A stretch of DNA of 32,184 nucleotides from a virus. The notes below the pieces were generated by a model. That model was not told where the DNA came from. It did not search any database and saw nothing but the letters and a program-made list of their open reading frames with translations. The stretch lies in the IMG/VR virus record IMGVR_UViG_3300000116_000069, positions 1 to 32,184 of that record; one strand, given 5' to 3'. Both the position numbers and the translations under genes were made by a program. Each line of letters begins with the position of its first letter. The first letter of the stretch is position 1. Below are positions 12,007 through 13,905 of this stretch, in pieces.

Positions 12007-12180
12007 TCAGCTACTGTCAGGGTATTTTCGTTTCCAGTTGTTTGGTCGCTCATAAATCTTGCGTTCTTTCTCCCAGCACTCCGCACATAATGCTCGCTTT
12101 CCGTCTTTCAATGTCATGGTTTCTCCACATAAAGCGCAACACTCATAAAATGTTCCGACTCCATCATGATGTTTTTTCAT
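12007..12180 (-). CDS. Small zinc-ribbon protein, 57 aa
   Basis: The ATG at 12180 overlaps the stop of the 69-aa gene (ATGA). It begins MKKHHDGVGTFYECCALCG and contains two Cys pairs, C-A-L-C (residues 15-18) and C-A-E-C (32-35), separated by 13 residues: a four-Cys zinc ribbon or knuckle. The C-terminal half is basic (KERKIYERPNNWKRKY). Likely a nucleic-acid-binding or adaptor protein in the methyltransferase operon. Too short for most gene callers but intact and coupled. Confidence 0.7.
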   Translation of the reverse strand: MKKHHDGVGTFYECCALCGETMTLKDGKRALCAECWEKERKIYERPNNWKRKYPDSS

Positions 12181-12386
12181 TCGCCCTCCATCCTATTCTT
12201 ATGCTGTTTCCACCAGCTCGCCATGTTAGCCACAACAATAATCCAGCTACTGCTTGTCTTACTCTTATTAAAATCTCGCATAATATCCTGGGGCTTTGCT
12301 CCGCTCTTAACTAATCTCCGGGCTTCGTCTAATGCTCCTTCAATGCAATCTAATTCTTGCAGCGCTGTAAGTTGCTCCTTATTCAT
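12177..12386 (-). CDS. Unidentified small protein, 69 aa
   Basis: 69 residues, amphipathic helical: TALQELDCIEGALDEARRL, then AKPQDIMRDF, and a C-terminal Trp-containing hydrophobic segment SSWIIVVANMASWW. Its ATG overlaps the methyltransferase stop (ATGA), indicating translational coupling to that reading frame rather than to the alternative frame. No family recognised. A weak membrane association through the final hydrophobic segment is possible. Confidence 0.6.
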   Translation of the reverse strand: MNKEQLTALQELDCIEGALDEARRLVKSGAKPQDIMRDFNKSKTSSSWIIVVANMASWWKQHKNRMEGE

Positions 12387-13503
12387 CTGTCTTGCTCAAT
12401 GATGATGGCTCTGGCGATTTGTGCAACGACTTGGGGGACAACTGCGTTGCCAAGCGCTTTGAGTCTTTGCGTTCTTCCAACTTGATTTGTTGTAACTCTT
12501 GGGATGTCAGGTTCGTCCATCCAAGTGGGAACCCCATCAACCATTCCACCCAGTCTGCGTTCAATGCTCCGTTCCCCGTGTTCCGTACCTCCGGGCTGTT
12601 CCCCAACATCTTCTGCATCTTGGTTCCCGGTCTGCCCGCTGCATCCTCGTTCGCTGATGGTGTCAGAAACATCTCCTTCGCTACTATGCTCATCAAACTT
12701 TCTTGATGTTTTTTTTCCGCTAATTTCTCTATCGATCCGCTGTCCTTCCAATCCCTCGACATTGGTGTTGGGTACATTTTTACTGTTCCCCTCAGATTGC
12801 CCTTCGCCACATCGTGCGGAACGCCCTGATTGTTTTCCTTCATGTGCGCTGAGTACATGTCCGATGTCTTGGGTGTTGGCCACATCTTCTGCTTCTCCTC
12901 GTAATCCACCGCATCCTGTAGCCTCACTCCCCACCGTACTCCCTGCTTGTTCTTGCGGCTGTAATTTCCGTTCTGCTTCTCCACTCCCTCTGGTATTCCC
13001 CCTTGCTTTGCTGTCGGTGTTGGCCACGATGAAAAGTCTTTGCCTTCTATGCGGGGCGTCAACGGCCACAGCTCCCAATACAATCGTTTGCCAGGAGTAA
13101 CCTTCACTTTCCAAGTCAAATAACACTTGGTCGAGGCCCAAGTTGACATGACCAGACACGTTTTCGCAAAGAACCCAAGTGGGTCTTTTGTGCTTAATAA
13201 TTTCAAACATTCTCGGCCAGAGGTGGCGGTCATCTTCTGCGCCTTTTTGCTTCCCGGCAACGGAGAAGGGCTGACAGGGATATCCTCCACAGATAAGGTC
13301 GATGTCTCCGCAGCTGTCTGGATCAAAGGTTTTGACGTCTCCCCAAATAGGAACATCTGGCCAATGTCGTCTGAGTATGTGTTGGCAGAATCGCTCGTAC
13401 TCAACGAACTGGACGGTTTCAAATCTTCCTGTGCTTTCCAATCCGAGGTCGATACCTCCGATGCCTGCAAAGAGTGATAGTACTTTGATTTTTTCTTTGT
13501 CAT
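12379..13503 (-). CDS. Second full-length ORF overlapping the methyltransferase (W-P-T-P repeat protein)
   Basis: 374 codons open in another minus-strand frame of the methyltransferase gene. The sequence is protein-like: aromatic residues throughout, [WYF]-[PL]-T-P motifs at 160-163, 208-211, 244-247 and 279-282, and NADWVEWLMGFPLGWTNL at 315-332. The ATG (13503) directly follows the TGA of the VRR-NUC gene. The alternative frame of the same stretch in the methyltransferase (residues 168-312) is hydrophobic-poor, while this frame is not. From memory, proteins with these motifs are annotated beside C5 methyltransferases in other phages. It could be a true overprinted gene or a conserved shadow of the V-A-N-T repeats; I cannot tell which from one sequence. 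Confidence 0.45.
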   Translation of the reverse strand: MTKKKSKYYHSLQASEVSTSDWKAQEDLKPSSSLSTSDSANTYSDDIGQMFLFGETSKPLIQTAAETSTLSVEDIPVSPSPLPGSKKAQKMTATSGRECLKLLSTKDPLGFFAKTCLVMSTWASTKCYLTWKVKVTPGKRLYWELWPLTPRIEGKDFSSWPTPTAKQGGIPEGVEKQNGNYSRKNKQGVRWGVRLQDAVDYEEKQKMWPTPKTSDMYSAHMKENNQGVPHDVAKGNLRGTVKMYPTPMSRDWKDSGSIEKLAEKKHQESLMSIVAKEMFLTPSANEDAAGRPGTKMQKMLGNSPEVRNTGNGALNADWVEWLMGFPLGWTNLTSQELQQIKLEERKDSKRLATQLSPKSLHKSPEPSSLSKTDE

Positions 13504-13513
13504 TCAAGGACAC
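12383..13513 (-). CDS. C5-cytosine DNA methyltransferase
   Basis: 376 residues transferring methyl from SAM to cytosine C5. Motif I FAGIGG (15-20), motif IV GGYPCQPFSVAG with the catalytic Cys80, motif VI ENV (117-119), motif VIII APHRRQRLF (153-161) and the final RLKALGNAVVPQ (350-361, motif X) are all present. The target-recognition segment between VIII and X (about 168-330) is low complexity and has four V-x-[ND]-T repeats and no Trp or Tyr. The first codon is GTG only two bases after GAGAAG; TTG at 13507 sits eight bases after it and is the better start. Likely protects phage DNA from host restriction. It precedes a coupled 69-aa gene and follows VRR-NUC. Confidence 0.88.
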   Translation of the reverse strand: MSLNDKEKIKVLSLFAGIGGIDLGLESTGRFETVQFVEYERFCQHILRRHWPDVPIWGDVKTFDPDSCGDIDLICGGYPCQPFSVAGKQKGAEDDRHLWPRMFEIIKHKRPTWVLCENVSGHVNLGLDQVLFDLESEGYSWQTIVLGAVAVDAPHRRQRLFIVANTDSKARGNTRGSGEAERKLQPQEQAGSTVGSEATGCGGLRGEAEDVANTQDIGHVLSAHEGKQSGRSARCGEGQSEGNSKNVPNTNVEGLEGQRIDREISGKKTSRKFDEHSSEGDVSDTISERGCSGQTGNQDAEDVGEQPGGTEHGERSIERRLGGMVDGVPTWMDEPDIPRVTTNQVGRTQRLKALGNAVVPQVVAQIARAIIIEQDR

Positions 13514-13905
13514 ATCTTCTCAATTATTTGCATCCGTGGGTTTTTCTTTAACTCCACTAATGTATTGAGCCACAGCTTTACTTGCTGTAGGCTGTAACAC
13601 GTTTCAATATGTTCTCCAGTCATACGCAAGCACCGCTGAATCGCTTTCTGATTCTCCGTCATGCGCCCCTTCTTGGCTTTTAGCTCTATGAATATCCCGG
13701 CTTTCTCTAATGGATGTATCCATCCTTCTCTAGGTACAAAGATTTCAATGTCAGGCCAACCGCTAACCATACCCATAGCCTTTAACTTGCGCCTAAATGC
13801 TACATGCCGCACACCTTCATTAGGCGAATGATGATAGAGTGAGTTATCTGGCAAAGCTATTTCTAACCATTGAATGACATACTTCTGTAAATCATCTTCT
13901 AACAT
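13504..13905 (-). CDS. VRR-NUC domain nuclease
   Basis: 133 residues, the usual size of stand-alone phage VRR-NUC proteins (PD-(D/E)XK superfamily). Active-site elements: N-terminal LEDDLQKYVIQWLE (Glu3), SGWPDIEIFVP with the catalytic Asp, and FIELKAKKGRMTENQ supplying E-x-K and the downstream Gln. It cuts structured DNA such as branches or joints. The ATG directly follows the stop of the Cro-like gene, and its TGA abuts the ATG of the alternative ORF. Membership of the repressor/methyltransferase operon suggests a role in genome processing or in a modification-linked nuclease pair. Confidence 0.85.
   Translation of the reverse strand: MLEDDLQKYVIQWLEIALPDNSLYHHSPNEGVRHVAFRRKLKAMGMVSGWPDIEIFVPREGWIHPLEKAGIFIELKAKKGRMTENQKAIQRCLRMTGEHIETCYSLQQVKLWLNTLVELKKNPRMQIIEKMCP

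Follow-up and report, generated by a model that had tools for sequence, protein, structure and literature searches.

A phage locus very probably encoding a single C5 cytosine methyltransferase in the form of two polypeptides, read from overlapping frames

In classical C5 cytosine methyltransferases motif IX is followed by motif X, and the multispecific enzymes of the SPbeta / phi3T type are single chains. In M.EcoHK31I, the small gene was reportedly found by Lee et al. in 1995 to lie inside the large one in another reading frame, both being required for activity. A published account (PMC3404938) names this enzyme (recognizing YGGCCR) and M.AquI (CYCGRG) as the two natural C5 methyltransferases of two chains that have been characterised. 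The large subunit of M.EcoHK31I harbors motifs I-VIII and X together with the predicted TRD, the small one having only motif IX; the two chains of M.AquI are split inside the variable region, part of which stays in alpha (PMC3404938). In the multispecific phage enzymes of the SPbeta / phi3T type, a TL motif is located 10-50 amino acids from motif IX (PMC2413257).

The locus described here was found in a stretch of viral DNA of 32,184 nucleotides (hereafter the window), which is part of the 36.7 kb IMG/VR record IMGVR_UViG_3300000116_000069. This record encodes an integrase, a tail tubular protein, a head-tail adaptor and internal virion proteins, and the source virus is most likely a temperate podovirus.

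Contents of the two overlapping frames

A first inspection of the DNA, made without database searches (the sequence-only reading), had pointed to two ORFs fully overlapping on one strand; both were found, with 376 (frame A) and 374 (frame B) amino acids, in near-complete same-strand overlap on the minus strand (Table 1). The junctions described at that time also stand: the ATG of frame B (13503) comes exactly after the TGA of the upstream gene, frame A may begin at either GTG 13513 or TTG 13507, and the gene downstream of it is coupled to its stop through an ATGA overlap at 12386-12383. No family was matched by the product of this small downstream ORF (12177..12386) in Pfam and PHROG profile searches. 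The TGAATG junction of the VRR-NUC gene and frame B is common to the window and two related loci (L009 and L010), and termination-reinitiation is possible there.

Table 1. Features of the overlapping-frame locus and its neighbours in the window
Feature	Coordinates	Strand	Basis or remarks
Frame A ORF, putative alpha subunit (C5 cytosine methyltransferase, motifs I-VIII + X)	12383..13513	-	376 aa from GTG 13513 or TTG 13507; PF00145 profile search, E 2.1e-49
Frame A residues 1-167, large catalytic domain (motifs I-VIII)	13013..13513	-	predicted model, pLDDT mostly 71-97
Frame A residues 168-343, predicted unstructured connector keeping the frame open to motif X	12485..13012	-	pLDDT of about 40-50 in the greater part
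Frame A residues 344-376, motif X helices RLKALGNAVVPQ	12386..12484	-	pLDDT 93-94 over residues 361-376
Frame B ORF, putative beta subunit	12379..13503	-	374 aa, +1 to A; phrog_1008 match, codon-position test
Frame B residues 1-65, N-terminal extension, likely not under constraint	13309..13503	-	free variation at third positions of A
Frame B residues 66-157, conserved N-terminal section (PGSKKAQKMTATSG ... CYLTWKVKVTPGKRLYWEL) sharing its DNA with motifs IV-VIII of A	13033..13308	-	alignments; A third-position divergence halved
Frame B residues 158-313, TRD-like, WPTP/WPTP/YPTP/FLTP units	12565..13032	-	B constrained, 35/35 pairs; unit statistics; exchange between relatives
Frame B residues 314-330, motif IX-like LNADWVEWLMGFPLGWT	12514..12564	-	register with classical LTPxECxxLQGFPDW
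VRR-NUC nuclease gene, upstream of frame B	13504..13905	-	PF08774, E 6.6e-06
Small ORF downstream of frame A	12177..12386	-	ATGA overlap with frame A stop

Frame A harbors the PF00145 motifs GGYPCQPFS, CENV, HRRQR and LGNAVVPQ, including the catalytic PCQ and ENV, and also matches phrog_363 (E 1e-76). Its profile aligns to residues 13-175 of M.HhaI (E 2.3e-33) and, only faintly, to residues 299-319 around motif X; the small domain of M.HhaI (176-298) has no counterpart in this profile alignment. Frame A had been considered a complete C5 methyltransferase, which proved incorrect, as it lacks motif IX and a folded TRD; motif IX was sought in frame A of the split loci and was absent from all of them. 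The region involved is mostly disordered in the predicted model (residues 176-343), and a residue count agrees with the earlier remark that residues 141 to 331 lack W and Y.

Frame B belongs by profile to phrog_1008 'DNA methyltransferase' (E 2.5e-31, residues 65-337). Its homologues have in common the stretches PGSxxARKMTxTSG, CxLTWKxKxTPxGRLLFQL and GxLNPxWVEWLMGYPxGWT, as well as one to seven [W][PA]TPxAxD units spaced by about 34 residues, the last of which is located about 40 residues before GxLNPxWVEWLMGYPxGWT. LNPxWVEWLMGFPxGW is in register with the classical motif IX, LTPxECxxLQGFPDW, and in the window LNADWVEWLMGFPLGWT is in register with LTPKECQKLQGFPDW; hhalign of frame B against classical C-termini matched this motif IX segment alone, at a weak E of 0.13. 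The N-terminal half of frame B has no counterpart in monomeric C5 methyltransferases, no family or model for frame B was found in Pfam, NCBIfam or PADLOC, and a PDB profile search returned nothing credible. Structure prediction, one of the checks proposed beforehand, gave a model of poor quality (pLDDT 62.8 and pTM 0.26, from an input alignment leaving out rows from phage records) with PDB structural matches up to Z 3.4, too low to be meaningful, and none above 5. We infer that the WPTP units represent the TRD, reading the DNA target. The V-A-N-T words of frame A and the W-P-T-P words of frame B had been described as one DNA word repeated four times: GTGGCCAACACC is exact only twice, the other two copies having diverged to GTACCCAACACC and GTTTCTGACACC, and a tandem repeat search found none.

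Codon-position divergence and the extent of dual coding

Loci from viral and bacterial collections were compared as 51 independent pairs, each locus being used once, and pairs were aligned as DNA and scored only at stretches where both sequences were in phase. Divergence at the first, second and third positions of frame A is.110/.056/.311 at motifs I-III and.087/.048/.280 after motif IX, the third position being the most variable in both, as expected for a single gene. At motifs IV-VIII, third-position divergence is down to about half (.111/.044/.173). The pattern flips from motif VIII to motif IX (.252/.092/.070), where the first position of A, corresponding to the third of B, becomes the most variable; motif IX itself gives.163/.035/.046. 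First-position divergence of frame A exceeds that of the third position in none of 49 pairs at motifs I-III, and in 35 of the 35 informative pairs from VIII to IX. The sequence-only reading had recommended measuring synonymous constraint per frame; the codon-position test designates B as the constrained frame from VIII to IX. Along frame A, coding is single below about residue 75 and dual above it, and third-position variation comes back at motif X (12386..12484).

Amino-acid identity from VIII to IX is.873 in frame B,.692 in frame A and.696 in the unused third frame. As frame A is no better conserved there than a frame that is not used, its VANT words are a by-product of the WPTP units of frame B, and not the reverse. 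Judged by these divergences, both frames are under selection, and the overlap is not a by-product.

The openness of each frame was considered in the same loci and by simulation. In 20,000 shuffles of the synonymous codons of frame A, frame B acquired a mean of 8.7 stops (25.3 with the codon usage of the window), the longest open stretch reached 350 codons and none of the shuffles (0/20,000) attained 374, so that frame B is open far beyond chance, another point that had been proposed for verification. An origin of frame B in codon bias was ruled out by these shuffles together with the codon-position test. The sequence-only reading would have given up dual coding if frame B accumulated stops or frameshifts in close relatives while A was kept, with no excess synonymous constraint and no peptides; the reverse was seen for the frames, A closing while B stays open in three loci (L018, L024 and L089). 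Frame A has zero stops across the TRD against about 900 expected, a count that is partly ascertained, the set having required frame A to reach motif X. Since A closes just after motif VIII where motif X sits in frame B, reaching motif X is the sole reason for which frame A stays open over the recognition region.

The possibility that the whole 374-codon frame B is functional was rejected. Over its first ~64 residues the window clade shows A-only variation (0.219 divergence at A third positions vs 0.060 at first positions), and openness of this part is not significant (P(open) 0.06-1.0); these residues look unconstrained, and the functional overlap is therefore shorter than the ORF. Three start candidates are present in the window (ATG 13503, ATG 13356 and ATG 13233), none of them preceded by a strong Shine-Dalgarno sequence. 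If the alpha chain of the window begins at TTG 13507, ATG 13503 is located 4 nt after the alpha start codon in 5/5 clade members. At most homologue B starts, AAGGAG or another sequence of the Shine-Dalgarno type precedes the ATG, as a rule by 7 nt, and third-position divergence of A falls at the assigned B start. These two features favor an initiation of B on its own over its production by frameshifting.

Motif placement, apparent recognition-region exchange and distribution

In 221 loci, 74 of which were retrieved by querying with frame A, motif IX is confined to the +1 frame. Natural controls are provided by 20 bacterial genomes carrying a split locus. In the 12 ordinary C5 methyltransferases that they encode, motif IX is in frame and no more than 68 codons are open in +1; their 9 split enzymes have it in +1 with 181-298 open codons, and no enzyme among these 12 and 9 has motif IX both in frame and in +1. 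In L018, L024 (same contig as L094) and L089, motif IX and then motif X are found in frame B, and frame A ends just after VIII; L018 and L024 keep an ATG of frame B upstream of the frame A end. This AquI-like distribution within the same family shows that motif X has moved between frames.

Other arrangements were recorded. In L005 (1577-2605 and 1890-2420; Candidatus Megaera plasmids), the catalytic frame holds the motif IX segment immediately ahead of motif X, and the WPTP region, which remains in +1, ends before motif IX, an apparent intermediate or decayed state. L131 shows a switch of both frames at a single position, of the kind that a one-base indel would leave, which may reflect a sequencing error or a decayed copy.

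The stretch from VIII to IX (12565-13032 in the window) differs at about 40% of sites between the window and four relatives (L009, L010, L011 and L013), and its flanks are much more alike than the region itself, the differences at motifs IV-VIII being about 2-5% for L009 and L010 and about 20% for L011 and L013. This suggests a modular exchange of the recognition region between close relatives.

At least 520 confirmed candidate loci were collected from the viral collection and 380 candidate loci from the species-level genome collection. According to record titles, they are distributed among Bacillota, Bacteroidota, Pseudomonadota, Chlorobiota, Acidobacteriota, Spirochaetota, Chloroflexota and other phyla, and split loci also occur in Mycobacterium, Microbacterium and Microcystis phages and in Salmonella and Klebsiella elements. 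The split locus is rare in genomes from one phylum (2/199, one being the seed). Both ORFs carry a methyltransferase annotation in several records of Paenibacillus phages; most of the phage records examined, that of Mycobacterium phage SG4 among them, have an annotation for frame A only. This latter locus (L280) is very divergent, as are those of a Salmonella plasmid (L282) and a Klebsiella plasmid (L006), and all three have the same frame arrangement with only the catalytic frame annotated.

Among the papers available for searching, none was found to describe an overlapping-frame C5 methyltransferase in phages. The methyltransferase passages of the GeneTack frame-transition survey were not about cytosine DNA methyltransferases. 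The ShiLan methylase paper was discarded as a precedent, as it concerns an inserted HNH endonuclease, and nothing usable was found in the literature on BsuMI YdiO/YdiP, considered because one record carries the name YdiP.

Readings of the locus and relation to known enzymes

The locus would, with high probability, encode one C5 methyltransferase made as two polypeptides from the same DNA, with alpha as large domain and beta as small domain, forming an obligate pair. Motifs I-VIII of alpha would ensure AdoMet binding and chemistry, and its motif X, past the unstructured connector, would pack back onto the large domain. Beta would consist of the conserved N-terminal part, the WPTP TRD-like region reading the target, and motif IX. 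Both chains are predicted to assemble into the active enzyme, neither of them working alone. In most homologues beta is probably initiated separately, from its own Shine-Dalgarno and ATG inside alpha, and in the window clade possibly from the ATG 4 nt after the alpha start. The enzyme is most likely a solitary methylase shielding phage DNA from host restriction.

Could frame B instead encode a separate phage protein (regulator, anti-restriction or DNA-binding) that is translated and overprinted, and is not the small domain? The missing Pfam family, the low pLDDT of the model and the N-terminal half with no monomeric counterpart are in keeping with such a protein. It is nevertheless improbable, given that A is devoid of motif IX and TRD whenever B is present, that the motif IX-like sequence of B is rightly placed and, in some loci, fused in frame to motif X, and that the region is swapped between relatives as TRDs are. 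Programmed frameshifting would produce a single chain, one ribosome reading A up to motif VIII, shifting +1 into B for the TRD and motif IX, and returning to A for motif X, an order that is indeed collinear with the classical enzyme. We regard this as quite improbable: two opposite shifts would be required, the constraint on B begins well upstream of VIII, at a start preceded by a Shine-Dalgarno, which a shift after VIII cannot account for, A is kept stop-free over the TRD though its residues there are not conserved, and in L024 and L018 frame A ends just after VIII with B having its own ATG upstream. As to the two explanations offered by the sequence-only reading, overprinting is borne out by the codon-position test and the A-closed loci, and the idea that B is open merely because A carries VANT repeats and is rich in G/E/S/R can be dismissed, even though VANT and WPTP are the same DNA and A is compositionally biased there, because A is unconstrained from VIII to IX in 35/35 pairs, B remains open where A closes, and no synonymous shuffle yields the open frame. 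What B is had escaped the sequence-only reading: rather than an additional gene on top of a complete enzyme, B supplies the motif IX and TRD-like region missing from A.

With a two-chain enzyme as the favored reading, it seems reasonably likely, if well short of assured, that these loci constitute an undescribed large class of obligate two-subunit methyltransferases with overlapping catalytic and recognition frames, in which the middle of alpha serves as a stop-free connector, the WPTP units as swappable and possibly multispecific modules, and motif X is mobile between frames. To our knowledge, long same-strand overlaps with both frames under selection have rarely been demonstrated in bacteria and phages. 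Here dual coding is visible by position, changes frame along one gene and recurs across many bacterial phyla, making the locus a tractable case of how two overlapping genes share one sequence. As mostly only A is annotated, and there is no Pfam or NCBIfam model for B, anyone cloning such an enzyme would leave out its recognition subunit and record it as inactive. The division into large and small domains matches the artificial separation made by engineers for split or targeted methylases (PMC3404938, PMC5944983), and the split family would represent a natural source of such domain pairs.

Among known systems, M.EcoHK31I is the closest precedent, alpha in the window likewise having motifs I-VIII and X and beta motif IX. 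Unlike in M.EcoHK31I, the TRD region of the window is constrained only in the small frame (a distinction drawn from the published description of M.EcoHK31I), beta in the window family includes a long conserved N-terminal section as well as WPTP units in tandem, and family members occur in phages and prophages of many phyla. L018, L024 and L089 resemble M.AquI, with motifs I-VIII in alpha and the TRD, IX and X in beta (PMC3404938); in contrast, motif X of the window is in frame A, as in most loci, and beta of the split family starts near motif IV, inside alpha. The phrog_1008 entry, of which frame B is a member, has a generic label and does not mention the overlap with a catalytic frame, the subunit role or the motif split. 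As in the SPbeta / phi3T type, tandem TRD-like units precede motif IX, the last WPTP unit being about 40 amino acids away, but the enzyme of the window is predicted as two chains and not as one. Taken together, the split in the window is of the known two-chain kind with new features, widespread and mostly unannotated.
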